Shown here one piece after another: positions 26,827 to 54,115 of a DNA stretch of 64,000 nucleotides; within the stretch, counting starts at the first letter, position 1; each line of letters starts with the position of its first letter. This DNA is from Acidobacteriaceae bacterium (GTDB lineage Bacteria > Acidobacteriota > Terriglobia > Terriglobales > Acidobacteriaceae), in NCBI GenBank assembly GCA_025462735.1, contig JAOAPC010000020.1, positions 161,421 to 225,420 on the forward strand, written 5' to 3'. The notes under the pieces are model-generated. The model had not been told where the DNA came from. It saw only the letters and a program-made list of their open reading frames with translations, and searched no databases. The translations under genes were made by a program, and so were the position numbers.

Positions 26827-26915
26827 CGGAGAGTTGGCCGAGTGGCTAAAGGCGGCGGTTTGGTAATTCTCCCCAAAAGGCTGACCCCGTCTGTTTTCAA
26901 CCAGTTCGCCGAAGT
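26827..26915 (+). pseudogene. truncated tRNA-Ser 5' half with a non-tRNA tail (copy A)
   Basis: Bases 26827-26861 match the 5' half of tRNA-Ser: acceptor GGAGAG, the D-arm GGCCGAGTGGC and the anticodon 5' strand GGCGGCGGTTTG. The 3' half, variable arm and T-arm are missing; the anticodon triplet reads GGT, not a Ser anticodon. The following bases, roughly to 26915, resemble those behind the second copy at 54,029 (CAAAA, then CTGACC and TGTTTTCAA). The surrounding 26,592-26,992 stretch holds no gene. Confidence 0.75.
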
Positions 26916-26992
26916 TAACAGGAGACTCCGGGACGCCGTTCAGGGTGCAGAAAACCAACAAAGCGATCCAGACGGCCCTAACGTTGCAAAAT

Positions 26993-28342
26993 TCAGGTTT
27001 TCACTGAAACAGGCTCGCTGCCTTTAATAGTTCGCTCCGGATCCACGATCATCCACGCCAGCGCCCCTAGCACGCACAATCCAGCCGCAACCAAGAATGA
27101 CGCCGTCCAACCAAATCGGCTGGCGATTGCCGGAGTCAACGAAGCCGTCACGAAGCCACCGACTTGCGCCCCCATATTCATAAAGCCAGAAACCGAGCCG
27201 GAAGATGATCCCGCAAGTCCGGCGGTTACAGACCAGAAAGAACTCTGCGCCAGATACAAGGCGCCTGCCCCGCCGGCCAGCACCACGCTGGCGAGCCTCG
27301 CACCGTGAACTTCAGAGCCCAGTACGAGAAAAACACCAGCCATTAAAATAACCACCGCCGCCAGATAGCAGCGTCCCACACGTGCGCCCCATCGGCGGGC
27401 CAGACGATCGCTGATGAATCCGCCGATTGGACAACATGTTGCCATCGCCAGGAATGGCAACATGGCATAGAACGCGCTGGCCTTAAGGTTCAAACCTCTG
27501 ACCTGCGCCAGATATAAATAAAACCAACTGAAGAATATCCAGGCAACGTACCCAAAACTGAAATAGCTGAAGGTGATGGCCAGAACATCCCGGCTTTTTA
27601 AAATGGAGGTCCAGGGGATCAGACGCTGGTTTGTGTCGACGGATTTGCCCGCGGAGATTCCTTCATTAATAAATGCCAGTTCTGAGGCCGACACTTGGCG
27701 GTGTTCTTGCGGAATGTCTCGCGCAAAAATGAACCACACCAGCCCGGCCAGTAAGCCAATCACGGCGCAAATCCAGAACGAGGTTCTCCAGCCGTAATGC
27801 AGCATCGCGTAAGTGATCAGCGGCGGAGAGAGCCCGGCCCCGGCACCCACCCCGGCGAAAATCCAGCCATTTGCGATTCCGCGCTCATGCACTGGGATCC
27901 ACCGGGAAACGAATTGGTTTGAGGCCGGATACATTACTGCTTCGCCTGCACCCAATAAGAATCGCGCAGAAACGAATAGCCACAAAGCCCCAGTGATTCC
28001 AGATGGCACCGATGCCGTCAGAGCGGTGAACACTCCCCACCAGATCACTCCAGCGGCAAGCACCCGTCGCGGTCCCAGTTTGTCGGCCAGCCTTCCCCCG
28101 GGTGTTTGAAAAAGGGCGTAGCCCGCAAGAAAAGCACTGAACACCCAACCCAATTGGACATTGCTCAAGTGGTAGGCTGCGGCAATAGAGCCGCCGGCGA
28201 TGGAGATATTCACGCGGTCTAGAAAAGCGACCCCGCTCAACACAAACAACAAGAAGATGAGATTCCAGCGCACGTGACTGCGCCCGACGACGGTCACCGC
28301 ACTTCGTGGGGCGTTCTCGATGGCCTCAGTGGGCGGCGCCAT
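26993..28342 (-). CDS. MFS transporter, anion:cation symporter (ACS) family
   Basis: 449 residues with twelve hydrophobic segments. Family signatures are visible: FLDRVNISIAGGSIAAAYHLSNVQLGWVFSAF in helix 1-2, GRLADKLGPRRVL in loop 2-3, and GAGEAVMYPASNQFVSRWIPVHERG in helix 4-5. This group imports organic anions such as hexuronates, glucarate, galactonate or tartrate with protons. The ATG overlaps the end of the upstream hydrolase by 17 bases, so the two are translated together. A second ACS-type importer is encoded at 47,107. Confidence 0.9.
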   Translation of the reverse strand: MAPPTEAIENAPRSAVTVVGRSHVRWNLIFLLFVLSGVAFLDRVNISIAGGSIAAAYHLSNVQLGWVFSAFLAGYALFQTPGGRLADKLGPRRVLAAGVIWWGVFTALTASVPSGITGALWLFVSARFLLGAGEAVMYPASNQFVSRWIPVHERGIANGWIFAGVGAGAGLSPPLITYAMLHYGWRTSFWICAVIGLLAGLVWFIFARDIPQEHRQVSASELAFINEGISAGKSVDTNQRLIPWTSILKSRDVLAITFSYFSFGYVAWIFFSWFYLYLAQVRGLNLKASAFYAMLPFLAMATCCPIGGFISDRLARRWGARVGRCYLAAVVILMAGVFLVLGSEVHGARLASVVLAGGAGALYLAQSSFWSVTAGLAGSSSGSVSGFMNMGAQVGGFVTASLTPAIASRFGWTASFLVAAGLCVLGALAWMIVDPERTIKGSEPVSVKT

Positions 28343-29192
28343 GGTATGCCGTGACTCGTTGCCGTGATTCCCCTAGGTTTTCGATGCCGAGTTCCACGAT
28401 ATCGCCAGCCTTCAGATACACGGGAGGGTTCATGCCCAAGCCAACTCCGGCCGGCGTTCCAGTGCTGATCATGTCGCCGGGAAGAAGGGTCATGAACTCG
28501 CTCACGTAGGAAACTAGGGTGGCGACATCGAAGATCATGTTTGAAGTGGAACTGTTTTGACGGCTCGTTCCGTTTACCATGAGCCACATTTTCAAATTGC
28601 CAACGTTAGGGATTTCGTCGGGCGTTGCGAGGAAGGGGCCTAACGGTGCAAACGTGTCCGCGCTCTTGCCTTTTACCCATTGTCCCCCGCGTTCGAGTTG
28701 AAAACTGCGCTCCGAGTAATCGTTGTGGAGGGCATAGCCGGCGACGTAATCGAGGGCGTTCTTTTTATCGATGTAGAGAGCACGTTTGCCGATAATGACC
28801 GCCAGTTCCACTTCCCAGTCGACTTTGGTCGCGTTGCGTGGCATCACCAGAGCATCATTCGGCCCCATCAGCGAAGTTGTCGCTTTAAAGAATAGAACCG
28901 GTTCCTTTGGGGGCTCGGCCTTCGTCTCCGCAGCGTGGTCTCGATAATTAAGTCCAATGCACACGATTTTACTGGGCCGGCAAATCGGAGGCCCAAGCCG
29001 CGTAGTTGGCGAGACCCTCGGAGCGGAAGCCGCATTCTTCCTCAGCCATGTCTCCAGTTGCTTCAATCCGCCTTTCCCAAAAAAACTTTCATCGTAGTCC
29101 GAACCTATCGCCGATACATCGATGCGACTGCCGTCTTTTAGGAGCACGCCCGGTTTTTCCTGCCCTGGCTCCCCAAAGCGTATAAGTTTCAT
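28326..29192 (-). CDS. fumarylacetoacetate hydrolase-family protein
   Basis: Start at ATG 29190-29192 (MKLIRFGEPGQ), with GGGGAG about 9 bases upstream; 288 residues. The FAH catalytic core is complete: SKIVCIGLNYRDHAAE, the metal ligands in DWEVELAVIIGKRA, AGYALHNDYSER, then GDMISTGTPAGVGLG. In this superfamily members hydrolyse or decarboxylate beta-diketo acids, or cleave 2,4-diketo-3-deoxy sugar acids such as 2,4-diketo-3-deoxy-L-fuconate. The pairing with an ACS transporter supports a sugar-acid role. It could also complete the L-fucose route encoded at 60,900-64,000, which is inference. Confidence 0.9.
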   Translation of the reverse strand: MKLIRFGEPGQEKPGVLLKDGSRIDVSAIGSDYDESFFGKGGLKQLETWLRKNAASAPRVSPTTRLGPPICRPSKIVCIGLNYRDHAAETKAEPPKEPVLFFKATTSLMGPNDALVMPRNATKVDWEVELAVIIGKRALYIDKKNALDYVAGYALHNDYSERSFQLERGGQWVKGKSADTFAPLGPFLATPDEIPNVGNLKMWLMVNGTSRQNSSTSNMIFDVATLVSYVSEFMTLLPGDMISTGTPAGVGLGMNPPVYLKAGDIVELGIENLGESRQRVTAYHGAAH

Positions 29193-29325
29193 CTTGCGGA
29201 TCTCCCCTCGATGAGTTGTTCGCAAAACTCGCAAAAGCTGTGGTCATCGTTCAGTTGTTGAATCGAATCACGAAAGCATGAGCGATGCTGAACTGAAGAG
29301 TTGTAAATTTCTCGCTCGACAATCA

Positions 29326-29335
29326 TCATATAATA
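29326..29335 (+). promoter_or_regulatory. candidate operator, TCATATAATA
   Basis: Sits between the divergent hydrolase/transporter operon and the first cupin gene, 60 bases before the latter. It matches the TCATATNATA motif shared across the island. TATAAT within it could also be a -10 box. Confidence 0.5.
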
Positions 29336-29394
29336 ATTAGAATAGTCCCGAACAGATTTTTGCGTCCCCATCACATCAAGGAGAAACTGCCTCC

Positions 29395-30249
29395 ATGCAG
29401 AGAAAGACTCCCGCATCGTTGATGTTGGTTCTTATCGCCGCGCTTCTTCTTTCATCTTTGGCGACGGCACAAAGCGTCGGGGATACTATCGAGCTGTATT
29501 TCGGCGATTGGCACACATCCTCATCACATACCATCCGAGGAGGGCTTCAGCTACGGGACATTTTTACACGTGGCAATCCACAAGCGCCCACCCAAAAAGG
29601 TGCGGTGCTCCGTTTTGTCAATTCATATGATTACGCCACTCTCGCGCCCCGGGCTTCAAGCCAGACGACCCGTCTCGATGGTCAGCAGGAAGTTTACTTT
29701 GTTGAATCCGGTCACGGCACCGTAACTGCGGGCGGACAAACCTCCGACCTTTTCCGCAACATCGCGATTCTGGTGCCTGCGAATTTAGAGTTCACGATCA
29801 AGAACACTGGCGACCAGCCGCTGACTATGTACGTCATCAATGAACCAGTGCCGGCCGGTTTCCGCCCCAATTCCAGCATCTTGGTCCGGGACGAAAATAA
29901 GCTTCCCATTACTTCGAGCGACGGCCACTGGGCACACATAGTAAAGACACTATTCGTAACCAGCGATGGCCTTGCCACGCTTGAGAGTGTGCTGACGGTA
30001 GCGCTCGATCCGCTCACTATAGGGCGTCCGCACGTCGTTGATCACGACGATATCGAAGAAGTATGGACAGCACTCCGTGGCACCAGCATCGCCTTTGTGG
30101 GCAATCAATTGCGACGGCAAACGCCGGGGATGGCCTTTTACCATATCCCAGACAACAAAACACCACATACCAACATTAACCAAAGCGAAGATTCTCAAGT
30201 GAGTTTTCTCTATTTTGCTCGTTACCATCCGCACGAACTCCGCAAGTGA
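29395..30249 (+). CDS. secreted double-cupin protein, copy 1
   Basis: 284 residues with a signal peptide (LMLVLIAALLLSSLATAQ). Two cupin halves follow, at about residues 75-145 and 200-265. The first has GQQEVYFVESGHGTVTAGG; the second, RPHVVDHDDIEEVWTALRG, where the copies at 30,298 and 40,103 have EPHPH and GQEEIWAAIDG. The second His of the HxH pair is therefore lost and an extra residue inserted, so metal binding in this half may be changed. Function is unknown; cupins in sugar loci can be isomerases or lyases of unsaturated or keto sugars. First gene of a run of plus-strand genes. Confidence 0.8.
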   Translation: MQRKTPASLMLVLIAALLLSSLATAQSVGDTIELYFGDWHTSSSHTIRGGLQLRDIFTRGNPQAPTQKGAVLRFVNSYDYATLAPRASSQTTRLDGQQEVYFVESGHGTVTAGGQTSDLFRNIAILVPANLEFTIKNTGDQPLTMYVINEPVPAGFRPNSSILVRDENKLPITSSDGHWAHIVKTLFVTSDGLATLESVLTVALDPLTIGRPHVVDHDDIEEVWTALRGTSIAFVGNQLRRQTPGMAFYHIPDNKTPHTNINQSEDSQVSFLYFARYHPHELRK

Positions 30250-30297
30250 ATCCGAAGTGCGAGCTGAGAAGTGCGAGTCGAAAAAGGAGATCTCATT

Positions 30298-31290
30298 ATG
30301 CGGCGCGCAATTGCCTGGTTAAGTTCATGGATGGTCGTATTCGCGCTTTTGAGTTTCGCCAAGGCCCAGACTCCACCGCCGAGCAGCGGCACTCGAAACG
30401 CCATCAACGGCATTAACTCGTATCCCGGGCCGGGTCTGGTCAGGTACTCGCCCGATCGCGAGCCGCGCAATCGGCGAATCGATCTATTCCTTAGTGATTG
30501 GCAAGGATCCATGCCCCGCTTTGAGCATGGTTCGTTGGTGCTGCGCGACATTCTGACTCGTGGCGACAACTTTGCGCCTCCGGAAAAAGGCGCTGTACTG
30601 CGTTACGCGAACTTCCTCGCTCTTGGCCGCTTGGCTCCCGGCGATTGGACTACGCCTTCGCGGCTCGAAGGACATCAGGAGGTTTATTACATCCTCGGCG
30701 GTGAGGGAGAGGTCACGGCGGGCGGCGACACAGCAAAGCTGCGCAAAGACGTCGCTATCCTGATGCCTGCTGGACTCGAGTTCGTGATGAGGTCCACTGG
30801 CGATGAAGCGCTAACCATGTATGTCATTAATGAGCCGACGCCGGCCGAGTTTCACCCGAAAACCAAAATGGGTGTAAAGGATGAAGCCGGTGCGCACCAG
30901 AGAACTCCTGCTGGCGGAGATCCGTTTATTGTAGGCGGCGCTTCCGGACATTGGGCGCACATTGTGAAAGAACTTTTCTCGCCTGCGGATGGACTTGCGA
31001 CCGAGCAAAGCGTCATTACCGTGACCGTCAATCCGCTTACGCTGGGCGAACCGCATCCCCACCGGCCGGGCCAGGAAGAAATCTGGGCTGCTATCGACGG
31101 CGACAGCCTAGCCTTCTTGGGCACCGAACTCCGTATGCAGCGGCCGGGCATGGCGTACATGCTGCCGCCGGATGCGACTACAATTCACTCCAATATTAAT
31201 TTTGGCGACAAGCCCGTCAAGTTTCTCTATTTCGCAAAATTTCCGGAGGGCGACAATTACACCCACGCGGTTGTGCCTGCACCTAAATAA
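30298..31290 (+). CDS. secreted double-cupin protein, copy 2
   Basis: The ATG at 30298 has AAGGAGA 8 bases upstream and yields 330 residues with signal peptide (WMVVFALLSFAKAQ). It shares FLSDW, HGSLVLRDILTRGDN, EKGAVLRYANFLALGRLAPG and the two cupin halves with the copies at 29,395 and 40,103. The second half carries the full cupin motif: HPH, then Glu after four residues and Gly at the end (EPHPHRPGQEEIWAAIDG). A metal-binding enzyme outside the cytoplasm is likely; reaction unknown. It lies 48 bases after copy 1 and 22 before the lactonase gene, so co-transcription is likely. Confidence 0.82.
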   Translation: MRRAIAWLSSWMVVFALLSFAKAQTPPPSSGTRNAINGINSYPGPGLVRYSPDREPRNRRIDLFLSDWQGSMPRFEHGSLVLRDILTRGDNFAPPEKGAVLRYANFLALGRLAPGDWTTPSRLEGHQEVYYILGGEGEVTAGGDTAKLRKDVAILMPAGLEFVMRSTGDEALTMYVINEPTPAEFHPKTKMGVKDEAGAHQRTPAGGDPFIVGGASGHWAHIVKELFSPADGLATEQSVITVTVNPLTLGEPHPHRPGQEEIWAAIDGDSLAFLGTELRMQRPGMAYMLPPDATTIHSNINFGDKPVKFLYFAKFPEGDNYTHAVVPAPK

Positions 31291-31312
31291 GACCGTTCTT
31301 CTTTATAGATCG

Positions 31313-32554
31313 ATGCGAACCACGAGCTTGAAAAATTATCTTGTCTCGTCGTTGCTCCCGGTCCTGCTGTTGACCACAGTTGCATGGAGCTCTCCAGCAG
31401 CTTCGGACGAATACTTCGTTTACTTCGGCACCTACACCGGCTTCACTTACATGAAAGAAGGTCTCCCGGCCGGCGGAAGCCACAGCAAGGGCGTTTACGT
31501 CAGCCGCTTCCGACCTGCAAGCGGGGAACTAAGTAAGCCAGAGCTCGCAGCGGAGATTGTGAACCCGGCATTCCTCGCAGTTCATCCCAACCAACGCTTT
31601 TTGTATGTCGTGACCGAGGACCCTCTTTCGGTTGGGCCGAACTTTGACCATGCGTCTTATGTGACTGCTTATGAAATCGAGTCAGCAACTGGCAAGCTGC
31701 ACCTGCTGAACAGCCTGCCTACGGGCGGCACCAGCACCTGTTATTTGTCGATCGACAAGTCGGGGCATTACCTGCTGTTCGCGAACTTCGGCAGCAGCAG
31801 CGTCACGGTGCTACGAATCAAGGATGACGGTTCGATAGGCGAACAGACCGCGTTCATGAAGCACATAGGAAGCGGCAGGGATCCGGCATTTCAATCGAAA
31901 GCCCACCCGCATTCGATCGACGTTTCTCCCGACAACCGCTTCGCCATTGTTTCTGATCTCGGCGTGGATAAAGTGTTCGTGTACCACTTCGATGCGTCTA
32001 CCGGCGCGCTCTCGCCCGATCAGCCTCCATTCGTCGAATCAGAATCAGGTGGTGGTCCACGTCATTTTGTTTTTGATTCTGCCGGTAAATTCGGATATTC
32101 GCTCCACGAGATGAGCGGCTTTGTAACCGTAATGGCCTGGGACTCGGCGAATGGCAGCTTCACCAAAATTCAGGACGCTAGAACACTGCAGCCCGATTTT
32201 GTTGGCGCAAACGATAGCGCCGAGATTGCGATACATCCCAACGGAAGGTTTCTCTACGAGTCCAATCGCCGCTTCCGCGGGCCGGAGTTGTGGGGCCCTG
32301 ACACAATTGGCGTCTTCGCCATCGATCCGGTTAAAGGGACATTGTCAGAGGTGGAGCAAGTGCCGCCCGGAGGCACGATGCCGCGTAACTTCGCCATCGA
32401 TCCGACGGGAGCATATTTATTTGCAGCTAATGAGTTCAGCGGCAACGTCGTACTGTTTCATGTTGATGGCAACACCGGACGGCTTACGCCAGCTAATAAT
32501 GAAGTGAAGATCGACGTTCCGGTGTGCATCGTGTTCGTGCCCGCGCATAGGTGA
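31313..32554 (+). CDS. secreted lactonase-family seven-bladed beta-propeller, copy 1
   Basis: From ATG 31313 the product has 413 residues, a signal peptide (SSLLPVLLLTTVAWSSPAA) and the repeated propeller pattern of the 6-phosphogluconolactonase-like family: YFVYFGTYTGF, HPNQRFLYVVTEDP, SIDKSGHYLLFANF, GGGPRHFVFDSAGKFGY and NFAIDPTGAYLFAANEFSGNVV. Cytoplasmic relatives open 6-phosphogluconolactone; exported ones act on free lactones or have unknown roles. Its position next to PQQ-type dehydrogenases suggests it opens the lactones they produce. It begins 22 bases after cupin copy 2. Confidence 0.85.
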   Translation: MRTTSLKNYLVSSLLPVLLLTTVAWSSPAASDEYFVYFGTYTGFTYMKEGLPAGGSHSKGVYVSRFRPASGELSKPELAAEIVNPAFLAVHPNQRFLYVVTEDPLSVGPNFDHASYVTAYEIESATGKLHLLNSLPTGGTSTCYLSIDKSGHYLLFANFGSSSVTVLRIKDDGSIGEQTAFMKHIGSGRDPAFQSKAHPHSIDVSPDNRFAIVSDLGVDKVFVYHFDASTGALSPDQPPFVESESGGGPRHFVFDSAGKFGYSLHEMSGFVTVMAWDSANGSFTKIQDARTLQPDFVGANDSAEIAIHPNGRFLYESNRRFRGPELWGPDTIGVFAIDPVKGTLSEVEQVPPGGTMPRNFAIDPTGAYLFAANEFSGNVVLFHVDGNTGRLTPANNEVKIDVPVCIVFVPAHR

Positions 32555-32610
32555 GCTCGACCGATTGCGGTGATTACTGGTGAGGAGATCAAAGCACTTT
32601 AATTAAATCA

Positions 32611-33858: not shown

Positions 33859-33929
33859 ACCGGTGTGATGCACTCGAGGTAGAGGGCACAGGCGATGTAC
33901 TGATAAATTCGTACGCTGGTTTGTATTTG

Positions 33930-33939
33930 TCATATGATA
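33930..33939 (+). promoter_or_regulatory. candidate operator, TCATATGATA
   Basis: Preceded by ATTTG, giving the 15-mer ATTTGTCATATGATA, which recurs as ATTTGTCATATAATA at 45,198-45,212. It lies 30 bases before the cytochrome/sorbosone dehydrogenase start. Nearly palindromic about CATATG. Confidence 0.55.
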
Positions 33940-33968
33940 TAACTGTAAAAAATCGGACAGGTATCGGA

Positions 33969-35651
33969 ATGATCGTTCGGAGCAACTGTTTCGCTAATCT
34001 ATTCTTGAAATTTTCCGTGTCTGTGCTTCTGCTCTTAAGCGCCAGCTTCGCGCCCTCCTTATTATTCAGCCAGGACGCTTCATTTCACAACGCGCCCGCA
34101 AGCACAAAAACAGATAAAAACCCCTACGCTGGAAAGGCCGACGCGGCTACTGCCGGAAAAACTGTCTACTCGAATAGCTGTATCACTTGTCACGGCGCAT
34201 CAGGACAGGGAAGTGGCAATGTGCCGCCCCTGGCACACGGACCCGCCCAGACAGCTTCCGATGGCGAAGTTTTTTGGTACATCACGCATGGTGATATCGA
34301 GAACGGAATGCCATCCTGGGCAAGTCTGCCGGCCGAACAGCGCTGGCAAGTCGTCACTTATATTAAGACGCTCGGAAGCACGTCTCCAGCAGCTACAACT
34401 TCCGCTTCCGTGGCGCCTGAAGCCGCATCTGGGCCGGCCGTATCGAATGCTCCGCCACCCAAGCCGCCGTTTACCGACTATCGCTTCGAGAGTCCTGGAA
34501 CGATTCGTCACATCACGCTCAAAGATCTCCCCGAACCGTACGCCACCAGCTCGGCCACAAACGGTCCGAAGATCGTCGCGCGCCCAGAGGACGCTTGGCC
34601 GAAAGCGCCGGAGGGTTTCAAAGTCGAGTTGTACTCGACAGGGCTAACCAATCCCCGAATAATGCGCACCGCGCCCAACGGAGATATTTTTCTTGCGGAA
34701 ACCAGCGCCGGCGATATTAAGGTCTTCCGTGGAATGACGGCGGACGGCAAGCCGGAACAGATGAAAGTCTTCGCGACTGGCTTGAACATACCGTTTGGGA
34801 TTGCGTTTTATCCCCTCGGCCCAAATCCGGAGTGGGTGTATGTCGCGAACATGGACTCGGTCGTCCGCTTCCCCTATCACAATGGCGACATGACCAGCAG
34901 CGGCCCGCCTCAGCACCTGCTCGATTTGCCCAGCGGCGGTCACCACCGTTCGCGTGATGTCCAGTTTTCTGCCGATGGCAAGAAGATGTTCGTGTCGGTT
35001 GGGTCTGAGCAGAACGTCGACGATACTCCTGCAGAAAAAAACCGGGCCGATATTCTTGAGCTCAATCCGGACGGCTCGGGTTTACGTGTGTATGCCTCCG
35101 GTATTCGCAACCCGGTTGGTATCGCAATTAATCCGGCTACCGGCGAGCTGTGGTGTTCAGTGAACGAGCGCGATGGATTGGGTAATGATCTGGTGCCCGA
35201 CTACATCACGCATGTGCAGGAGGGTGGCTTCTATGGCTGGCCATGGTGGTATATGGGTGGCAACCAGGACCCGCGCTTTGCAGGAAAACATCCGGAATTA
35301 AAAGACAAAGTCATTACCCCCGACGTCATCTTGCAGCCGCATAACGCGTCCCTGCAAATGGCTTTCTATGACGGCAAGCAATTTCCGGCGGAGTATGCAG
35401 GAGATATTTTCGCCTCAGAACACGGTTCCTGGAACCGCTCACCACGTGCCGGATATGAAGTGATCCGCGTGCCCCTGCACCAGACTGGGCACGCAAGCGG
35501 CGAGTACGAGGATTTTCTTACCGGCTTCGTCATCGATGACGAGAATGTCTGGGGGCGTCCTGTTGGTGTCACTGTCGCGACAGACGGTTCGCTGCTGGTG
35601 AGCGACGATGGCTCAGGTTCGATTTGGCGTATTAGCTACACCGGAAAATGA
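33969..35651 (+). CDS. cytochrome c fused to a PQQ-type glucose/sorbosone dehydrogenase
   Basis: From ATG 33969, 560 residues. A signal peptide (LKFSVSVLLLLSASFAPSLLFSQ) leads into a class I cytochrome c domain at about residues 55-130 (SNSCITCHGASGQGSG for heme, NGMPSW for the distal Met). A Pro/Ala linker follows, then a six-bladed GSDH propeller at about 215-555 (APNGDIFLAETSAGDIKVFRG, GLNIPFGIAFYP, GGHHRSRDVQFSADGKKMFVSVGS, GIRNPVGIAINPATGELWCSVNERDGLG). The propeller binds PQQ in this family and oxidises aldoses or L-sorbosone; electrons would pass to the attached heme. In many relatives the cytochrome lies at the C-terminus or is separate. Confidence 0.9.
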   Translation: MIVRSNCFANLFLKFSVSVLLLLSASFAPSLLFSQDASFHNAPASTKTDKNPYAGKADAATAGKTVYSNSCITCHGASGQGSGNVPPLAHGPAQTASDGEVFWYITHGDIENGMPSWASLPAEQRWQVVTYIKTLGSTSPAATTSASVAPEAASGPAVSNAPPPKPPFTDYRFESPGTIRHITLKDLPEPYATSSATNGPKIVARPEDAWPKAPEGFKVELYSTGLTNPRIMRTAPNGDIFLAETSAGDIKVFRGMTADGKPEQMKVFATGLNIPFGIAFYPLGPNPEWVYVANMDSVVRFPYHNGDMTSSGPPQHLLDLPSGGHHRSRDVQFSADGKKMFVSVGSEQNVDDTPAEKNRADILELNPDGSGLRVYASGIRNPVGIAINPATGELWCSVNERDGLGNDLVPDYITHVQEGGFYGWPWWYMGGNQDPRFAGKHPELKDKVITPDVILQPHNASLQMAFYDGKQFPAEYAGDIFASEHGSWNRSPRAGYEVIRVPLHQTGHASGEYEDFLTGFVIDDENVWGRPVGVTVATDGSLLVSDDGSGSIWRISYTGK

Positions 35652-35672
35652 TCGGGGACTAGGCTTAATTCG

Positions 35673-36350
35673 ATGACCAACACTCTGCACCGTTACGGCG
35701 ATTCTGAAAGTTTCTACGATGACTACATTATTTTTGCCACTCCCAGCAGCGGCAAGAATGATAGCGACAGTGTTCCCAAGCTCAAGGCTTTTCTGGAGAT
35801 GGCCCTCCCTTTTAATCCAGTAAACCTTGGCGATCCGGTCCACGGCGGCGCGCTACGGCCGTCACGGAGTCTGACCACCGTGTCGAATTGGAAGCGCGAT
35901 ATGACTGCGAACTTCCGCGCCGTGATTGATGGCATTGACGCGCCTGCGTCAGTAGCTGCCATCTTCGATAATCAGGAATCCGCAGAAGGTTTTCTCAAGG
36001 TCGTAGCCGACGCTGATCTCGGCCTATCCGTGAATGTTTCAACTTCCATCGAAGGCGCGGAGGAGTGTTGCCGCTATGCCGGCATTACACGCCACAGCGT
36101 CGGTTACTCGCTGGGTTTCGAGGGCTCCACCGAGAAGCTGCCCAACTCGCAGGTGCTCAAGCTAACGACCATGTGTGGTCACGGGATGGTATCGTCCAAC
36201 CTGGCTAGAAAAATGATCGATTGGGTAAAGGAAGGCCGACGCACTCCCGCCCAGGCCGTCACCTATATGCAGCGCTTCTGTTCCTGTGGCGTGTTCAATC
36301 CAGTTCGCGCCAAACGCCTGCTCGAAGACGCGCGCAAGAAGATCGAGTGA
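35673..36350 (+). CDS. protein of unknown function with conserved-looking Cys pairs
   Basis: 225 residues, no signal peptide or membrane segment. I do not recognise the family. It has a beta/alpha rhythm (AVIDGIDAPASVAAIFDNQESAEGFLKVVADADLGLSVNVSTSIEGAEECCRYAG) and a C-terminal half with TTMCGHGMVSSNLARKMIDW and FCSCGVFNPVRAKRLLEDAR. The CC, CGHG and CSCG groups suggest a bound metal or Fe-S cluster, but this is inference. It begins 21 bases after the sorbosone dehydrogenase and 68 before the PQQ glucose dehydrogenase-like gene, so it is embedded in the oxidation operon although cytoplasmic. Confidence 0.75.
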   Translation: MTNTLHRYGDSESFYDDYIIFATPSSGKNDSDSVPKLKAFLEMALPFNPVNLGDPVHGGALRPSRSLTTVSNWKRDMTANFRAVIDGIDAPASVAAIFDNQESAEGFLKVVADADLGLSVNVSTSIEGAEECCRYAGITRHSVGYSLGFEGSTEKLPNSQVLKLTTMCGHGMVSSNLARKMIDWVKEGRRTPAQAVTYMQRFCSCGVFNPVRAKRLLEDARKKIE

Positions 36351-38311: not shown

Positions 38312-38347
38312 CGGCCTTTCGCGAACCTCCCGAAGTTTTTCTTGCGC

Positions 38348-46506: not shown

Positions 46507-46516
46507 TATGATACGA
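46507..46516 (-). promoter_or_regulatory. candidate operator, TCGTATCATA (minus strand)
   Basis: Ten bases before the start of the cytochrome/HhH gene. It differs from TCATATCATA by one base. The plus-strand reading TATGATACGA could also be a -10 element. Confidence 0.45.
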
Positions 46517-46526
46517 TATTTCGCGT

Positions 46527-47015: not shown

Positions 47016-47106
47016 CACTTCGTCAGATATCTGCCATGCGCTATCGTCACGATCCAAACAGCGCTTCTAATTTTTCGTCTTCCGTCTCACAGGTGCTGCC
47101 GGCCCA

Positions 47107-48390
47107 ATGACAGAGACCACGCTTACCGCTCGAGACGTACCCGCGCGTCCAACCCATGCTCGCCACGTTGTGCTGGCGCTGGTGGTCGGCGCCTACATGA
47201 TCACGTACATGGATCGCGTGAATCTGGCATCAGCCGTTCCCGTGATCCAGCGGGATCTCGGTTTCTCCATGATTACCATCGGCTGGATCTTCGCCGCCTT
47301 TCGCTGGGGGTATGCTTTTTTTCAAATCCCCGGTGGATGGATGGGCGACCGCATCGGCGGACGCCGGGCTCTGTCAGTGGTTGTCGTATGGTGGTCGATT
47401 TTCACGTCGCTGACGGCGTTTACGTGGAATGCCTTCTCAATGGGCGTGTGCCGATTTCTTTTCGGCATGGGCGAAGCTGGGGCTTTCCCGATCGCAACCC
47501 GGTCTCTCTCCGGATGGATGTTGCCGACGGAGCGAGGTTTCGCGCAGGGCCTGACCCATGCTGCATCGCGAGTGGGCGCGGCTTTGACTCCGCCCTTGGT
47601 CGTGCTGCTGATGGTTCGCTTCGGATGGCGCATGCCGTTTTTTCTCTTCGGCCTGATTGGGTTGTGCTGGTCAATCGCTTGGTACTGGTATTACCGCGAC
47701 ACTCCCGCCGAGCACCGGCACACCAACGCCGCCGAACGATCTCTCATCGAGAACTCAACAGGCATTCGTCCCGCGCAGACACGTACGGTGCCTTGGGGTC
47801 TAATCCTGCGCAGCCCCTCGTTGTGGACTTTATCGCTGATGTATTTCTGCTACGGCTACAGTATCGATATTTATCTGGATTGGTTCCCCAAGTATCTGAA
47901 TGACCACCGCGGTTTCAACCTCACGCAGATGGGTTTCTATGCAAGCCTGCCTCTGTTAGCAGGGGCAGCCGGCGATCTTTTGGGTGGATCAGTTTCGGAC
48001 CGCTGCGCCCGGCGCTTCGGCAATTTGAAACTTGCGCGACGCCTGGTTGCACTGGCTGGTTTTGTTCTTGCGGCCGTTTTCATTATTCCTGCAACGTTCA
48101 CGTCCCACTCCACGGCTTCGGTCCTTTACTCTTGCGTAGCGGTCTTTGGGCTTGAAGTCACCGTGGGTGTGTCCTGGGCGATTCCGCTGGATATAGGTGG
48201 CGAGTACGCCGGCACGATAGCGTCGGTGATGAATACATTCGGCAACCTGGGAAGCGCCGTCTCGCCGGTGCTGCTGGCCTATCTAGTCGGACTGTACGGT
48301 TGGAATGTGCCGTTCCTGGTGTGCTCTATACTTTGTGTTGCGGGCGCTGTGCTGAGTCTGGCCATCGATGCAGATAAAAAACTCGTCTGA
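47107..48390 (+). CDS. MFS transporter, ACS family (second copy)
   Basis: 427 residues, twelve hydrophobic segments, and ACS signatures: YMDRVNLASAVPVIQRDLGFSMITIGWIF, GGWMGDRIGGRRAL, GMGEAGAFPIATRSLSGWMLPTERG and DWFPKYLNDHRGFNLTQMG. It resembles hexuronate/glucarate-type importers. It follows the cytochrome/HhH gene by 91 bases. It would bring the oxidised organic acid into the cell where BKACE or the FAH-type hydrolase acts. Substrate cannot be read from the sequence. Confidence 0.9.
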   Translation: MTETTLTARDVPARPTHARHVVLALVVGAYMITYMDRVNLASAVPVIQRDLGFSMITIGWIFAAFRWGYAFFQIPGGWMGDRIGGRRALSVVVVWWSIFTSLTAFTWNAFSMGVCRFLFGMGEAGAFPIATRSLSGWMLPTERGFAQGLTHAASRVGAALTPPLVVLLMVRFGWRMPFFLFGLIGLCWSIAWYWYYRDTPAEHRHTNAAERSLIENSTGIRPAQTRTVPWGLILRSPSLWTLSLMYFCYGYSIDIYLDWFPKYLNDHRGFNLTQMGFYASLPLLAGAAGDLLGGSVSDRCARRFGNLKLARRLVALAGFVLAAVFIIPATFTSHSTASVLYSCVAVFGLEVTVGVSWAIPLDIGGEYAGTIASVMNTFGNLGSAVSPVLLAYLVGLYGWNVPFLVCSILCVAGAVLSLAIDADKKLV

Positions 48391-48455
48391 GAGTTACGGT
48401 GAGTCGAACGGCGACTCTGGCGTTTTCGATCTGCTGCAAAATTCGACCGTGATAG

Positions 48456-48465
48456 TATGATATGA
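48456..48465 (-). promoter_or_regulatory. candidate operator, TCATATCATA (minus strand)
   Basis: Lies 35 bases before the ferredoxin-fusion start. TTCGAC sits 8 bases upstream of TATGATA on the plus strand, and the same TTCGAC-8-TATGATA arrangement occurs at the GntR gene (50,561-50,581). Confidence 0.5.
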
Positions 48466-48499
48466 CGATTATGATTTGTTGCAGCCCACGTCTACCGCG

Positions 48500-49345
48500 A
48501 TGAAAATCAATCCTGACAAATGTGTCGCCTGCGGCAATTGCATTTATGTCTGCCCGGTTGGAGCCATTTACGTTGATCCTACCCTGAAACGCGCCACCAT
48601 TGACCGCAATGAATGCGTAGAGTGCTACGCGTGCTACTACGGGCTAAGCACTGAGCATTTGAATCCAGGCTTCGTGCGCACGGTTCGAAAATTGCTGCAG
48701 TTTGGAAGAGTACGCTTCGATCCCGAGCCTGATATTTGCCCGACCGCTGCCTTCGAACCAGACCATCTCGAATGGCCGCGGGTTGTCCGGCGGGCATTCT
48801 CTGATCCCCGCGCTACCCACGAGTCCACCGGCGTTCAAGGCCGCGGCACCGAAGAAGTCAAGACCAATGACGTCACCAAGCGCGTCAGGCAGGGCGAAGT
48901 TGGCTTCACCATCGAGTTCGGCAGGCCCGGCGTCGGGGTCTGGTTCCGCGACATCGAGAAGATGACTCAAGCTTTGGCAGAGGCGAAGATTCCCTTCGAG
49001 AAAAAGAACCCTCTAACTCTGTTGATGAGCGACGTTGCGACCGGAAAATTAAAGCAAGACATCCTGGGGGAGAAGGTTCTTTCGGCAATCGTGGAAATCA
49101 AAGTGACTGTCGATCGCACCGAAGAGATTCTCCGGCTCGTGCGCGAAGTCGAGAAACAAATTGATACCGTCATCGCTCTTGGGGTAAGCACACGGTGCGA
49201 TGAAAATGGCGAGGAGCACGTCGTGGCGCCGATTCTTGAGCGCTTCGGATACCGCATTCAGAGAGCCAAGACCAATACAGGGTTGGGCAGGATAACCAAC
49301 CCTGAAGAGGAAGTCCGCTTTCAAGTCGAAGCTGCAACCATGTGA
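48500..49345 (+). CDS. ferredoxin-type 4Fe-4S domain fused to an unknown C-terminal domain
   Basis: Start taken at ATG 48500 (MKINPDKC); a TTG 24 bases upstream is possible, and neither has a clear ribosome site. 281 residues, no signal peptide. The N-terminus has one canonical cluster motif (CVACGNCIYVCP) and a second, reduced set (CVECYACYYG), then a lone Cys in DICPTAAF. A basic linker at residues 90-125 leads to an alpha/beta region (VGFTIEFGRPGVGVWFRDIEKMTQALAEAKIPFEKKNPLTLLM, then ILGEKVLSAIVEIKVTVDRTEEILRLVREVEKQ) that I do not recognise. It may be an electron-transfer partner for a catabolic dehydratase or dehydrogenase. Function unknown. Confidence 0.8.
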   Translation: MKINPDKCVACGNCIYVCPVGAIYVDPTLKRATIDRNECVECYACYYGLSTEHLNPGFVRTVRKLLQFGRVRFDPEPDICPTAAFEPDHLEWPRVVRRAFSDPRATHESTGVQGRGTEEVKTNDVTKRVRQGEVGFTIEFGRPGVGVWFRDIEKMTQALAEAKIPFEKKNPLTLLMSDVATGKLKQDILGEKVLSAIVEIKVTVDRTEEILRLVREVEKQIDTVIALGVSTRCDENGEEHVVAPILERFGYRIQRAKTNTGLGRITNPEEEVRFQVEAATM

Positions 49346-49453
49346 AATGTCTGGGTGGCAGGGATCGGCACTAAGATAACTGCTTCGCGGCAGTCACCGG
49401 ACGTGCACCACTGAACGCGCACCTTTCGCAAACGCGCCCCAGAGCAGAATTGC

Positions 49454-50509
49454 GTGAAAGACCATCCATTGGCGGAGCATCCTCACAAAGAAGCAGGTCT
49501 CCCCGATTGCTCTCTCGTCCTTGATCTGATCGATTCTTTCCGCCGGTCGAAAGCCATGTTCGCGGCGGTCTCCTTAGGCGTTTTCGATACCCTCGAACGC
49601 GCTCCGGCAAAAGCGAACACGGTTGCCTCGGCTCTTCAGCTCGCCTCTGAGCCACTCGAACGCCTGCTCGACGCTTGTGTAGGACTCAAGCTCTTGCGGC
49701 GAAACGGTGCATTGTATGCGAACGAACCTGTAGCCAGCACTTATCTGTGCCGCGCCAGTGAACGCGCGCTCGTCGGCTACATACTTTATTCGAATGATGT
49801 TCTGTTTCCTTTATGGGGTCACCTCGAAGATGCGCTCCGAGAAGGGACACCGCGATGGGAGCAGGAATTCGGGGCCGAAGGGACAATTTTCGATCACTTC
49901 TTCCACACGAATGATGCCAAGCGGACCTTTCTCCATGGCATGCATGGGTTTGGTCTGCTGAGCTCACCTAAGGTAGTCGAAGCCTTCGACCTTTCACGGT
50001 TCCGACGAATGTTGGATTTGGGTGGCGCGACGGGACATCTGGCGATTGCTGCTTGCCAGCATTACCCGGAGCTCCATGCCATCGTCTTCGATCTTCCCGA
50101 GGTGACCGAAATTACCGACGATTACATCAATAAATCAGGTCCGCTCTCAGAGCGCGTCTCCCTAATGGCAGGCGACTTCTTTCGCGATGAGCTGCCGGAA
50201 GCCGATCTGATCGCGCTGGGGCGGATTCTTCACGACTGGCCCGAGACTAAGATTCGTCCCTTGCTTAAGAAGATTTTCCATCGCCTCCCTTCTGGCGGAG
50301 CAATACTTATTTCCGAAAAGCTACTCGACGAAAACAAAAGTGGTCCCGCGACCGCTCTTCTTCAATCTTTGAACATGCTGGTCTGCACTGAGGGCAAGGA
50401 GCGCACGCTGAGCGAGTATCGACAACTGCTGGAAGACGCCGGGTTTCAGAAAGTTGAGGGCAGAGTTACTGGCGCTTATCTCGATGCAGTTTTTGCCAGC
50501 AAACCGTGA
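49454..50509 (+). CDS. SAM-dependent O-methyltransferase, plant COMT/ASMT-like
   Basis: From GTG 49454, 351 residues, the usual length. The N-terminal helical dimerisation domain covers residues 1-100 (FAAVSLGVFDTLE, then ASEPLERLLDACVGLKLLRRNGALYANEP). The Rossmann-like domain has the SAM loop MLDLGGATGHLAIAA, FDLPEVTEI, and the catalytic His in LGRILHDWPETK. These enzymes usually methylate hydroxyl groups on aromatic small molecules or intermediates of natural products. It sits in the same-strand run between the ferredoxin fusion and the GntR regulator, an odd place for a biosynthetic enzyme. Confidence 0.87.
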   Translation: MKDHPLAEHPHKEAGLPDCSLVLDLIDSFRRSKAMFAAVSLGVFDTLERAPAKANTVASALQLASEPLERLLDACVGLKLLRRNGALYANEPVASTYLCRASERALVGYILYSNDVLFPLWGHLEDALREGTPRWEQEFGAEGTIFDHFFHTNDAKRTFLHGMHGFGLLSSPKVVEAFDLSRFRRMLDLGGATGHLAIAACQHYPELHAIVFDLPEVTEITDDYINKSGPLSERVSLMAGDFFRDELPEADLIALGRILHDWPETKIRPLLKKIFHRLPSGGAILISEKLLDENKSGPATALLQSLNMLVCTEGKERTLSEYRQLLEDAGFQKVEGRVTGAYLDAVFASKP

Positions 50510-50571
50510 GAGCGATCAGGGTAGAGCTACATCGGAAGGAACGCGTAAATCGTAGGAACTTTCGACAATGG

Positions 50572-50581
50572 TGTTATGATA
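50572..50581 (+). promoter_or_regulatory. candidate autoregulatory operator, TGTTATGATA
   Basis: Lies 47 bases before the proposed start of the GntR regulator. Eight of ten bases match TCATATGATA. TTCGAC sits 8 bases upstream of TATGATA, as at 48,456. Confidence 0.45.
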
Positions 50582-50627
50582 CCCGAAATGGAGCGCCGCT
50601 AATGGTTTTGCGCCGGAGGGTAGGGGC

Positions 50628-51413
50628 CTGATTCGAAGACAGACGATTACCGCCCAAGTCATTAACTATATCCTCGATCTCATAAAAAAGGGCCACGTAA
50701 AACCCGGTGAGCGCCTTCCGACGGAGAAGCAGTTGACCGAAGAACTTTCGGTCAGCAGGACCTGCGTTCGCGAAGCCATCAAGTCTCTGCAATCTCTACA
50801 ACTCATCAGCGTCAAGCCGAAGATTGGCGCAGTTGTTCTCGAGCCCACTCCAGTTGCTCTCATCAACGCTGAGTATCTTTCAACCTCGGCCTTCATGCAG
50901 CAGGCGGAGTCTTTGATCGAATTTCGCAAGGTCCTCGAATTGGGATTAGTTGCTTTGGCTGCGGAAAAAGCTAACGAGGCGGACTGGGTGGTCATGCGAG
51001 AGGTCTTGGCGGAGCAGGAAGCTGCTATCAAAATGGACCGCAGTACTCGCCACGGCACTATGATTTTTTACGAGGCCATTGGCAACGCGAACGTCCGTTT
51101 CCACAAAGCGGTTGCTGCGGCCACGCGTAATCCGCTTGCAATCATGGTGCTTGAAGCTATCTCTGCGCCGCTCGCCGAGGTGAGCCGCCGCACCAACGAA
51201 ATGCCTGGAGTGCCCGAAGCCGGACTACGGCAACATTGGGCAATTTACCGGGCGATCCGTGAGAACAATCCAGAAAAGGCCCGTCGCGCGATGCAGGCAC
51301 ATCTTGCAGCCGCGGAACGCAACGCTCATATTCTGGAGAGCGAGGACCATGACGGCGCGCCGAAAGTCCCAGCCGCCTCGTCGAGAAAAGAACACGCGGT
51401 TTTGCAGCGTTAA
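50628..51413 (+). CDS. GntR-family transcription regulator, FadR subfamily
   Basis: The winged helix spans the first 70 residues (TITAQVINYILDLIKKGHVKPGERLPTEKQLTEELSVSRTCVREAIKSLQSLQLISV). A helical FCD ligand-binding domain follows, with metal-type His residues in NVRFHKAVAAATRN and LRQHWAIYRAIRENNPEKARRAMQAHL. The start is unclear: no ATG or GTG is in frame before the HTH. CTG 50628, eight bases after GGAGGG, is the best guess; an ATG at 50602 is in another frame and stops after nine codons, so a small sequence error is possible. FadR-type regulators typically sense sugar acids or other carboxylates and repress neighbouring catabolic genes. Confidence 0.87.
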   Translation: MIRRQTITAQVINYILDLIKKGHVKPGERLPTEKQLTEELSVSRTCVREAIKSLQSLQLISVKPKIGAVVLEPTPVALINAEYLSTSAFMQQAESLIEFRKVLELGLVALAAEKANEADWVVMREVLAEQEAAIKMDRSTRHGTMIFYEAIGNANVRFHKAVAAATRNPLAIMVLEAISAPLAEVSRRTNEMPGVPEAGLRQHWAIYRAIRENNPEKARRAMQAHLAAAERNAHILESEDHDGAPKVPAASSRKEHAVLQR

Positions 51414-51462
51414 TGCCAGCATGCTCCTGCTGCCTGATTTTGTTGGACTCTATTTTGAATCT

Positions 51463-52770
51463 ATGTCGCTGCTGAGCCTCCAGAAAATGCGTTTCTGCGT
51501 TGGTGTAATCGTACCGATCCTGCTTGGCATTGGCGGTGTCGCGGCAGCTCAAAATCAAGGCATCGCGTCCCCTGGCAATAACGGACAAGCGCTTGTGGGA
51601 GCCACAATCATTGACGGCTCGGGTCGACCGCCAATCGAAAATGCAACTTTATATATTCGCAATGGGCGTATCGAGGCGGTAGGGAAGCGCGTGAAGCTTC
51701 CGGCTGGTGTGCAGCGCATCGATGCCAATGGGAAGACCATCATTCCCGGGTTAATTAGCGCACACAGCCATGTCAACGATGCTAGTCAGTTCGGCATATA
51801 TTTGCGCGATGGCGTAACTACCATACTGAGCTTGGGCGGCAATAAAGAGTTTGCCTTGCGCGACCAAGCTGCGAAGGCTCCGCCCGGAACCGCGCCACAT
51901 CTCTACGTCGCCGGCCCTATCCAGGATTCCACTGCGATTCCCGGGGCTGTGGCTGTAAAAGATCCTGAGGGAGCACGTAAAAGCGTAGATGAACTTACAG
52001 ACAACAAGCCGGACATCGTAAAACTACGTGTTGATGATTTTCTAGGCGCGCGCGCCAAAATGTCTCCTGATGTCTACGCCGCGATCATCGATGAAGCACG
52101 CAAGAATGGTTTCCGCACCGCAGCCCACATTGTTTTGTTGGATGATGCAAAGGGCGTACTGCGGGCCGGAGTCGATTACATCGCGCACAGCGTCCGCGAC
52201 CGCGAAGTGGACGCTGAATTCATCGGGCTCATGAAAGCGCGTCATGTCTTTTATTGCCCCACCTTCACCCGTGAGGTAGCCATCTTCGCTTACTCCGAGA
52301 CGCCCGCTTTCTTCAGCGATCCTTTTTTTCTGAAGGAGGCCGATTCTGCAGAGATCGCAAAAATGGCTGATCCAAAGCATCAGGAAACCGTCCGAAATGA
52401 TTCAGCGGCGCAGTGGTATAAGCAACAGTTTCCGGTAGCGATGCACAATCTCAAAGCCGTTTCGGATGCTGGCATTGATATTGTAATGGGGACGGACAGC
52501 GGTGGTGGGCCGGGCCGGTTTCAGGGCTACTTCGAACATCTGGAATTGGAATACGAGACCAAGGCTGGTCTAACGCCCATGCAGGCGCTCGTCTCGGCAA
52601 CCAGCGCTCCAGCCAAGCTACTGCACATTAGCGATCGCACCGGAACACTAGAAAAAGGCAAGTGGGCCGACTTCGTGATCTTGTCCGCGAACCCGCTCGA
52701 TGACATCAGGAACACTCGCAAGATCGATTCCGTCTGGATCGGCGGAGTCCGGGTTCCTGCAAAACAGTAA
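51463..52770 (+). CDS. exported amidohydrolase (imidazolonepropionase/prolidase-like)
   Basis: From ATG 51463, 435 residues; ATG 51487 (MRFCVG) is equally possible and gives a tighter signal peptide (FCVGVIVPILLGIGGVAAAQ). Metal ligands of the amidohydrolase TIM barrel are visible: HSH in ISAHSHV, His in TAAHIVLLDD, His in DYIAHSVRD and Asp in MGTDSGGG. The small beta-domain flanks it (ATIIDGSGRPPIENATLYIRNGRIEAVG, then WADFVILSANPLDDI). Members hydrolyse cyclic amides, peptides or lactones. The gene begins about 50 bases after the regulator and probably shares its transcript. Confidence 0.87.
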   Translation: MSLLSLQKMRFCVGVIVPILLGIGGVAAAQNQGIASPGNNGQALVGATIIDGSGRPPIENATLYIRNGRIEAVGKRVKLPAGVQRIDANGKTIIPGLISAHSHVNDASQFGIYLRDGVTTILSLGGNKEFALRDQAAKAPPGTAPHLYVAGPIQDSTAIPGAVAVKDPEGARKSVDELTDNKPDIVKLRVDDFLGARAKMSPDVYAAIIDEARKNGFRTAAHIVLLDDAKGVLRAGVDYIAHSVRDREVDAEFIGLMKARHVFYCPTFTREVAIFAYSETPAFFSDPFFLKEADSAEIAKMADPKHQETVRNDSAAQWYKQQFPVAMHNLKAVSDAGIDIVMGTDSGGGPGRFQGYFEHLELEYETKAGLTPMQALVSATSAPAKLLHISDRTGTLEKGKWADFVILSANPLDDIRNTRKIDSVWIGGVRVPAKQ

Positions 52771-52782
52771 CATCGTGAATCT

Positions 52783-53772
52783 TTACTGCGGCGTTTTGGC
52801 TGCCAGAGTATAGAAGTCGTAGCGGACCGTCCAGTGCGCCTCTTTACCAGGCTCAATCTTCAGATGAATGTAAGGCTCGGCCGAAGCGACCGTTGAAATC
52901 GCCCAAAAATTAACCTTCTCGAGCGCCTGGTCGCTTGTTATGTGTACACCGGCCCCGCTCTTTAGGTTCTCAACCTTAAAATCGTAGTCTTTCACGTCGT
53001 TCTGCGATCCGGTCAGCTCCGAAAAAACTCCATTCTTTCCGACCAGCTCGTGGGGAAAATGAATTTCGTTTCCGACAATTTCGGCGCGATCGTTGAAACC
53101 GCGCGTCGCGACCGGAGTGAATTCGAATTTGACCACGATATCCGGCCCGACGACCTCGTGGTCGATTACAAAGAAATTATGGTTGTACTGAGTCGTATCG
53201 ATTGCTTTCTGACCGATGTTCTTCAGTGAGTGCTCCAGCAGAAGTTCCGGCTTGTCCTTCACCAGGCGCACAGTTTTGCGATACACGTACGCATATCCTT
53301 CGTCGGAACGCAGGCGCTGCGTGAACTCGATGCGGTCCTTGTGCTTGCGTATGGTCCATTTTCCGGGATCGACAATGTCATACGTCTCATAAGGGCGGTA
53401 TGCCTTTTCGTCCGGTTTGCGGACCGTGCCAATGCCGATTCGAACAAATGTGCCGCCGACCTTAGCTTCGTCATAGCCGAGGCCCGAGTCGTTTGTCCGA
53501 AACTCTTCCACCGGCCCAGTGATTGCGTCATGAATCTTGGGATCGTGGTGCTCGTACCACCGGCCAAAATACTCGTGTCCCCCGAATTGAAGGCTGGAGA
53601 CAATCCCCGACCAGTCAAACCGCGTGCCCTGGTACGAGCCGTGTTGAGCATCGGGCAGCATAAGTTCCGCGTGAATCAAGCCATTTGAGATCTCGGCCTT
53701 CGGGTAGTCCTGCCCGCTCAGTAAGCAGTTGGAAAAACAGATCATGGTGCACAAATAAAACATCGTTCGCAT
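52783..53772 (-). CDS. exported protein with a galactose-mutarotase-like fold
   Basis: From ATG 53770-53772 (MRTMFYLC), 329 residues with a signal peptide ending at SNCLLSGQ. The rest is a beta-rich supersandwich (LIHAELMLPDAQHGSYQGTRFDWSGIVSSLQFGGHEYFGRWYEHHDP, EFTQRLRSDEGYAYVYRKTVRL, TTQYNHNFFVIDHEVVGPDIVVKFEF, PYIHLKIEPGKEAHWTVRYDFY). The pattern fits aldose 1-epimerase relatives, with candidate His residues in HNFFVIDHE. It may interconvert anomers before oxidation by the PQQ enzymes, which act on one anomer. Convergent with the amidohydrolase, stops 12 bases apart. Confidence 0.78.
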   Translation of the reverse strand: MRTMFYLCTMICFSNCLLSGQDYPKAEISNGLIHAELMLPDAQHGSYQGTRFDWSGIVSSLQFGGHEYFGRWYEHHDPKIHDAITGPVEEFRTNDSGLGYDEAKVGGTFVRIGIGTVRKPDEKAYRPYETYDIVDPGKWTIRKHKDRIEFTQRLRSDEGYAYVYRKTVRLVKDKPELLLEHSLKNIGQKAIDTTQYNHNFFVIDHEVVGPDIVVKFEFTPVATRGFNDRAEIVGNEIHFPHELVGKNGVFSELTGSQNDVKDYDFKVENLKSGAGVHITSDQALEKVNFWAISTVASAEPYIHLKIEPGKEAHWTVRYDFYTLAAKTPQ

Positions 53773-53788
53773 AGCCGAAGTGTAAAGG

Positions 53789-53944
53789 CTAACGAAGGAA
53801 GGTGAAAGCAAATTGATGAAACGCGCTGTTGTCGCAGGTGTCGCTGGCATAATATCGACCAAAGAAGGCGGTGCGAGTCTCGATGATTTGCCCGACCTGT
53901 TTGCACCGTGTCCAATTGCGCCGAAGAAGCTCTGCAATGTCCAT
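53789..53944 (-). pseudogene. possible N-terminal remnant of a tyrosine recombinase
   Basis: From ATG 53942-53944 a 51-codon frame reads MDIAELLRRNWTRCKQVG, then IIETRTAFFGRYYASD, and stops. The second part resembles the opening beta strand of bacterial integrases (a hydrophobic residue, then GRYY or RYY). Nothing after it looks like the arm-binding or catalytic domain. It is divergent from and 85 bases away from the tRNA-Ser half, the usual relation of an integrase to its attachment site. The match is from memory of the pattern only. Confidence 0.3.
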
Positions 53945-54028
53945 GCTGAGTAGCGTATATATGTTGCATACGCAATGAATATTGGATAATAGACAATCGG
54001 TGCTTTGTTTATTGTTGATCGTAAAACC

Positions 54029-54115
54029 GGAGAGATGGCCGAGTGGCTGAAGGCGGCGGTTTGCTAAATGTTTCCAAAAATCCTGACCTGGTTTGTTTTC
54101 AATCGCTTCGCTCGA
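54029..54115 (+). pseudogene. truncated tRNA-Ser 5' half with a non-tRNA tail (copy B)
   Basis: Bases 54029-54068 match tRNA-Ser(GCT): GGAGAG, GGCCGAGTGGCTGAAGGC and GGCGGTTTGCTAAA, with an intact GCT anticodon. The sequence then departs from a tRNA. The tail CCAAAAATCCTGACC and TGTTTTCAA matches the tail of copy A at 26,871-26,903 with a single-base gap. No T-arm or CCA-like 3' end exists downstream. Confidence 0.78.

Follow-up and report, generated by a model that had tools for sequence, protein, structure and literature searches.

An Acidobacteriaceae bacterium with a soil-type acidobacterial genome (GenBank assembly GCA_025462735.1; 4.36 Mb in 24 contigs, 97% complete, labelled G000 here) carries two truncated tRNA-Ser(GCT) genes, copy A and copy B, on either side of a group of catabolic genes. 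Both lie in a window of 64,000 bp, the last 64 kb of contig C1 (JAOAPC010000020.1). On balance, and with confidence a little better than even, we favor the reading that A and B are the left ends of islands inserted serially at a core in the anticodon loop, each having brought a promoter and a 5' half with which the tRNA gene was rebuilt. An earlier note on this DNA had suggested attachment scars from serial integrations, and this fits the observations best. The support comes from a tail common to both copies, a left arm that B has in common with the intact gene, a complete tRNA gene at the same flank in a relative (G001), and a corresponding duplication in a second genus.

Two tRNA-Ser 5' halves with a common tail

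Copies A and B each consist of a 40-nt 5' half of tRNA-Ser(GCT) that leaves the gene in the anticodon loop and continues into a homologous tail. Copy A (26,828–26,867, plus strand; recognized from its sequence, from BLASTN of the window against itself, and from comparison with the intact gene) is decayed, matching the intact gene at 36/40 nt, and is probably the 5' half of the native gene; copy B (54,029–54,068, plus strand) is identical to it at all 40 nt. Their anticodon-loop cores are TTGGTAA (26,860–26,866) and TTGCTAA (54,061–54,067), both on the plus strand, and the arms flanking the core are palindromic at neither copy. The tails, 26,867–26,966 and 54,068–54,220 on the plus strand, are 83.7% (104 bases) and 82.6% (155 bases) identical to a third tail copy on contig C6, and probably constitute the left ends (P' arms) of island 1 and of the next island, respectively. 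In the self-comparison 26,826–26,909 aligns with 54,027–54,111 at 81% over 85 columns (84 and 85 bases, one single-base gap, E 7.6e-15), so the similarity of the tails is not due to chance. The earlier description of two plus-strand halves that leave the tRNA at one shared point, with tails alike except for a single-base gap, is thus borne out, with the start of A shifted by one base. Neither ARAGORN nor Rfam at gathering scores reports a tRNA gene in the window.

Throughout the genome, a pattern of 5' half, core and CCAAAA matches only A and B, and BLASTN with copy B at E < 1e-5 gives five matches: A, B, the intact tRNA-Ser(GCT) on C6, the separate C6 tail copy, and tRNA-Ser(GGA) on C12. Pairwise identities of the A, B and C6 tails are 74–84% over 104–155 bases, or 71–84% over 103–155 bases when the tail copy of a relative in the genus, G004, is included. 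Tail homologues are present in two of eight genomes of the genus and two of 300 of the family, G000 being counted in both. These numbers, with three tails in the genome, rule out a widespread repeat, and the second suggestion of the earlier note, a small element derived from the tRNA and present in many copies, is left without support. In G004 the 5' half and its homologous tail are on a contig other than the one bearing the left flank described below. One contig of G004, C222, has an identical counterpart among the records of the metagenome-assembled genome Acidobacteria gp1 AA144. A scan of genome contigs for the 5' half followed by the start of the tail returned one stretch, from gp1 AA144, the genome studied here possibly lying outside the set.

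Truncated 5' halves were also sought in 398 genomes of the family using an exact pattern, outside which copy A itself falls. Five genomes matched, and four (G000, G004, G079 and G133) are left after G094 was dropped because ARAGORN calls an intact tRNA there. G079, which belongs to another genus, has a truncated 5' half whose tail is not the one seen in G000. This fragment and the intact gene are on separate contigs and agree at 26 of the 28 promoter bases adjoining the 5' half; as judged from its sequence this is the same duplication of promoter and 5' half in a second genus. In G133, where no intact gene was located, the 5' half leaves the tRNA at the anticodon-loop core with another tail again. 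The G079 and G133 tails (L208, L209) contain close direct repeats (GAGTGCAGCAG twice; GTCCAGCA twice) that we take to resemble integrase arm-type sites, and the G133 contig ends shortly after the repeats, possibly in a transposase gene.

The left arm of B (53,743–54,028, plus strand, ~286 bases), the putative right end of island 1 together with its promoter, is present twice in G000, recurring at 94% upstream of the intact C6 gene; elsewhere, one of the 398 genomes, G072, has a 27-base match to it. With 601 bases around B as the query, every match, in seven plasmids and one phage, was tRNA-sized, and the tail pattern had no match among viral contigs.

The intact gene, the probable native site and a proposed order of insertions

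The earlier note had proposed locating the intact tRNA-Ser(GCT) and looking for the tail at its other end. A single intact gene was located among the genome's matches to it, on C6 (20,018–20,111, minus strand; 35,783–35,876 in c6m, which is C6 read in reverse orientation). The tail is absent from the other end of this gene; the third tail copy is 1 kb upstream, at c6m 34,771, 1,044 bases ahead of the core. Window positions 53,743–54,068 align at 94% over 327 columns with c6m 35,496–35,822, a stretch that immediately precedes the intact gene and runs into it. Copy A has the tRNA half alone in common with this region, and its upstream sequence differs from those of both B and the intact gene. 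A complete tRNA-Ser(GCT) results when the left flank of either A or B is joined to the C6 gene's core and 3' half, and no other core-bearing 3' half is present among the genome-wide matches. We take tRNA-Ser(GCT) to be an essential single-copy gene from its decoding of AGC and AGU; with a lone intact copy in a 97%-complete assembly, a lasting break is unlikely to have been tolerated.

To the left of the third tail there is no tRNA half, and a perfect inverted arm stands in its place (GGGAGA A TTGCTAA A TCTCCC). Among the eight TTGCTAA sites on both strands of the window and C6, this site alone has perfect 6-bp arms no more than two bases from the core, and it therefore has the inverted arms and the 7-bp overlap, coinciding with the anticodon loop, by which a tyrosine-recombinase core is recognized.

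C6 appears to follow C1. The final 1,094 bases of C1 (62,907–64,000) align end to end with the first 1,095 of c6m at 90%. The last genes on C1 encode Amidohydro_2, rhaM, MFS and SDR proteins, and c6m begins with the end of an MFS–SDR pair, a second SDR, an alpha-L-fucosidase, an IclR regulator and two MR_MLE proteins, which presumably form one L-fucose cluster. Copy A, copy B and the intact gene belong to the same assembly, and the contig overlap would place them on one replicon. Should the contigs adjoin, these three and the third site would be in line over ~72 kb. A predicted catabolic island lies between A and B, as the earlier note had it; rather than being bracketed on its own, this island would be one unit of a ~72-kb array that ends on C6.

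Copy A is probably the native tRNA site, as suggested by A itself and by G001, in which an intact tRNA-Ser(GCT) is located directly after the left-flank genes, ~250 bases beyond those syntenic with window 17,294–24,278 and on the same strand. The conserved left flank (17,294–24,413) includes a D-Ala-D-Ala ligase-like protein, a zinc peptidase and others, and the ligase is present in 7/7 relatives in the genus (in two pieces in G006). An RpoD-like sigma factor gene (24,580–26,217, minus strand) adjoins the flank in G000 and G004 and is not between flank and tRNA in G001. The contigs of G002 and G003 stop within 0.5 kb of the flank, and that of G006 stops inside it. On the right side, BLASTN among G001, G007 and G005 gave the tRNA match alone, and TBLASTN of the window and C6 proteins against these genomes gave scattered matches and no shared run of genes to the right of the tRNA.

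In the order of events that we propose, a tyrosine recombinase would exchange the 7-bp core of a circle (5' half–core–tail) with that of the gene in the chromosome, whose 5' half would stay behind as a scar, and the incoming promoter and 5' half would join the old 3' half. Island 1 (27.2 kb) would have entered the native gene and left scar A. The rebuilt gene would next have received a 1.0-kb unit that carries a DUF7919 gene, and a unit of ~43.6 kb, mostly on C6 and with a right end lacking a tRNA half, would have entered the scar between them. These three insertions would yield four junctions: half to tail at A, half to tail at B, the palindromic arm X to tail on C6, and half to 3' half at the intact gene. 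The third insertion is the weakest step. The recombinase may have acted in trans or have been lost.

Several observations count against this proposal. A Pfam scan at E 1e-5 of 45 open reading frames between A and the intact tRNA (27 in the window, 18 on C6), which covered the larger frames with a few exceptions, turned up no recombinase. No exact empty site for the A–B island alone was found among the relatives compared. The third site has X where a tRNA half would be expected, and one unit therefore breaks the simple rule. When the gene is rejoined with the decayed core of A itself, the anticodon becomes GGT. A decayed 44-nt 3' piece of tRNA-Ser(GCT) inside the second unit is not accounted for. 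The join of C6 to C1 would depend on an overlap that is 90% and not identical; in a comparison of 47 of the 48 contig ends (all but one end of C24), some other pairs have exact overlaps of 35–127 bases, as an assembler leaves them, and several have inexact matches of 87–95% like that of C1 and C6, which makes the overlap support and not proof. The islands have a GC content of 54–55%, hardly different from the 55.8% of the left flank. With respect to the native site, G004 has the sigma factor, another gene and no tRNA-Ser(GCT) in the 9.7 kb past the match, G005 has none in the 9 kb following the left flank, and in G007 the tRNA is 40 kb beyond the flank, in the same orientation, with no 5' scar found between.

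The 44-nt piece is at c6m 16,200–16,243 (L020:19651–19694) and lacks the core; it matches neither the proposed order of insertions nor the 20-nt copies associated with the integrase family described below.

A broader and tentative extension of serial insertion, which we regard as rather doubtful, is that the lone AGC/AGU-decoding tRNA serves as a capture platform. Metabolic islands without an integrase, each with its own promoter and 5' half, would stack on its 5' side by way of the anticodon loop; each capture would swap the promoter of the essential tRNA, and the scars would be safe secondary landing sites for elements unable to rebuild the gene.

Alternative explanations and the C6 integrase

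Disrupting insertions accompanied by a spare gene are an unlikely explanation, albeit the one that survives best among the alternatives considered. Elements with a palindromic attP (X–core–tail) would have broken the tRNA gene while carrying a whole, promoter-bearing tRNA-Ser(GCT); the left arm of B would be the promoter of such a spare, and B an element-borne tRNA broken by a later element. The palindromic X–core–tail site 1 kb ahead of the complete C6 tRNA agrees with this, and a 3' tRNA piece, about as decayed as A, does exist. However, that stray piece has no core, no core-bearing 3' half was found other than that of the intact gene, and no tRNA follows the tail of A or B within the window.

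It is improbable that the integrase encoded beside the intact tRNA made the scars itself, acting in trans and on the 5' side. PF00589 has 11 matches in the genome, none on C1 and one on C6, to the right of the intact tRNA. An integrase inside or overlapping the island, as Islander demands, was thus not found here, the lone C6 integrase being on the far side of the tRNA; PADLOC found nothing in four proteins. At E 1e-30, 52 of 150 genomes of the family, G000 included, have matches to the C6 integrase (382 aa). Among the 30 loci listed, 12 include a tRNA-Ser and three a tRNA-Pro; at the other 15 the flank examined contains neither. Members of the family at L038–L067 are found right after a tRNA-Ser of four isoacceptors or a tRNA-Pro, often with repeats such as GTGATACC between. 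The spacing between tRNA and integrase is 70–90 bp in nine of the 11 loci measured, the others having 134 bp (L056) and 372 bp (L054).

That the family lies directly after an intact tRNA-Ser(GCT) in both G000 and G079 speaks for a part of this integrase in making the scars, but seven of ten loci in relatives have copies of the tRNA 3' end, which places the crossover there rather than in the anticodon loop. At five of these (G034, G075, G122, G030 and G114) a copy of 16–23 nt, only 16 nt in G114, is 7–27 kb downstream at the island end; in G043 and G056 a 20–23-nt copy directly precedes the integrase gene; and in G088, G012 and G103 a 3'-end copy was not seen at the locus. From their sequences, the loci with 3' copies are ordinary islands with the crossover at the tRNA 3' end, and the C6 integrase is consequently no obvious candidate for having made A and B, and was rejected as the first choice. 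Moreover, G114 and G012 have both the gene and the integrase and no scar in the 32 and 13 kb upstream, respectively.

A short match at C10:18,585–18,605 was considered as the native right flank and rejected, the DNA following it being unlike the right flank of G001 by BLASTN and TBLASTN. It is a 21-nt tRNA-Ser 3' end (L145), probably the right end of an island of the 3' class, and to its right the DNA is similar (80% over 51 bases to C6) to the left end of a further island of this class.

Least probable of all is copying of the tRNA 5' halves and their flanks by segmental duplication or homologous recombination in the absence of site-specific insertion, for which the 24 contigs of the assembly and regional repeats such as the TPR–ASPIC gene pairs and a 132-bp inverted piece can be cited, but every tail in two species of the genus exits at the same anticodon-loop core, as do the different tails of G079 and G133.

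Relation to known islands, and cargo

Serial insertion of the kind proposed here has partial counterparts. Islander, as described, contains 3,919 islands, of which 159 have a 5' fragment, 2,083 are anticodon-centered and 125 are tandems of at least two, and it requires an integrase in each island (PMC4383910); the TIGER/Islander resource is described as likewise requiring one per island (PMC12424338). The 27.2 kb from A to B are within the 2–200 kb length range of Islander, and the distance from A to the intact gene would be ~72 kb if the contigs are joined. The proposed arrangement would be like that given for Islander's 5'-fragment islands, with a fragment upstream of an intact tRNA on the same strand (upstream here if C6 follows C1), an anticodon-centered crossover and a rebuilt gene, and unlike the islands of that account in that the stretch from the fragments to the intact gene yielded no integrase and the array would extend across two contigs (PMC4383910). 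Since both resources need an integrase, and the fragments in Islander are mostly 3', arrays on the 5' side without an integrase would be missed.

Archaeal pTN3-like integrases are reported to use an attB located within the tRNA gene's 5' half, the rebuilt tRNA being expressed from the integrase promoter, and according to the same report a 5'-half attB is seldom encountered in bacteria (PMC8371274). As in those elements, the rebuilt tRNA here would owe both its promoter and its 5' half to the island; whereas the integrase promoter drives the tRNA and the integrase gene is split on integration in the archaeal case, no integrase gene was found at the sites described here (PMC8371274). The Dehalococcoides ssrA islands, as described, are similar in that catabolic cargo is inserted serially at one single-copy essential RNA gene, some of them have no integration genes, and accretion has been proposed; they differ in using a serine recombinase, in a 20-bp direct repeat of the ssrA 3' end and in stacking downstream (PMC3146451). 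The five 3'-end islands of the C6 integrase family (four at tRNA-Ser, one at tRNA-Pro) are alike in having a tyrosine recombinase beside the tRNA, as at the intact gene of G000, and differ in having the intact tRNA and the integrase at the left end and the 16–23-nt 3' copy at the right. The 5'-side case is best read as a rare mirror image of ordinary tRNA islands.

What is new here is a proposed 5'-side array with no integrase found inside it, with catabolic cargo, at a single-copy tRNA that we take to be essential; no title or abstract opening returned by a literature search points to this locus. If serial insertion is correct, acquired islands for sugar use have repeatedly given an essential single-copy tRNA a new promoter, which would tie island uptake to tRNA expression and would give exact island ends for a little-studied soil lineage.

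Island 1 (26,867–54,028, ~27.2 kb) has no recombinase among its scanned proteins and is predicted to be a sugar-use island. Its cargo includes an MFS transporter, FAA hydrolase, cupins, lactonase-type propellers, PQQ dehydrogenase and cytochrome c, together with an outer-membrane beta-barrel protein, BKACE, a methyltransferase and an amidohydrolase. The start of island 2 (54,221–64,000), which probably continues on C6, encodes TPR and ASPIC proteins, an esterase, Amidohydro_2, rhaM, MFS and SDR proteins.

Just to the right of tail B, at 54,337–54,468, is an inverted 132-bp piece of a PDZ-protein gene on C6 (c6m 5414–5545; 92%). TPR and ASPIC/UnbV genes lie next to tail B (54,525–58,948) and again upstream of the third site (c6m 21,988–25,522), and in G004 (left end of L085) the sequence just to the left of the 5' half resembles, by eye, the end of a TPR/ASPIC-type gene.

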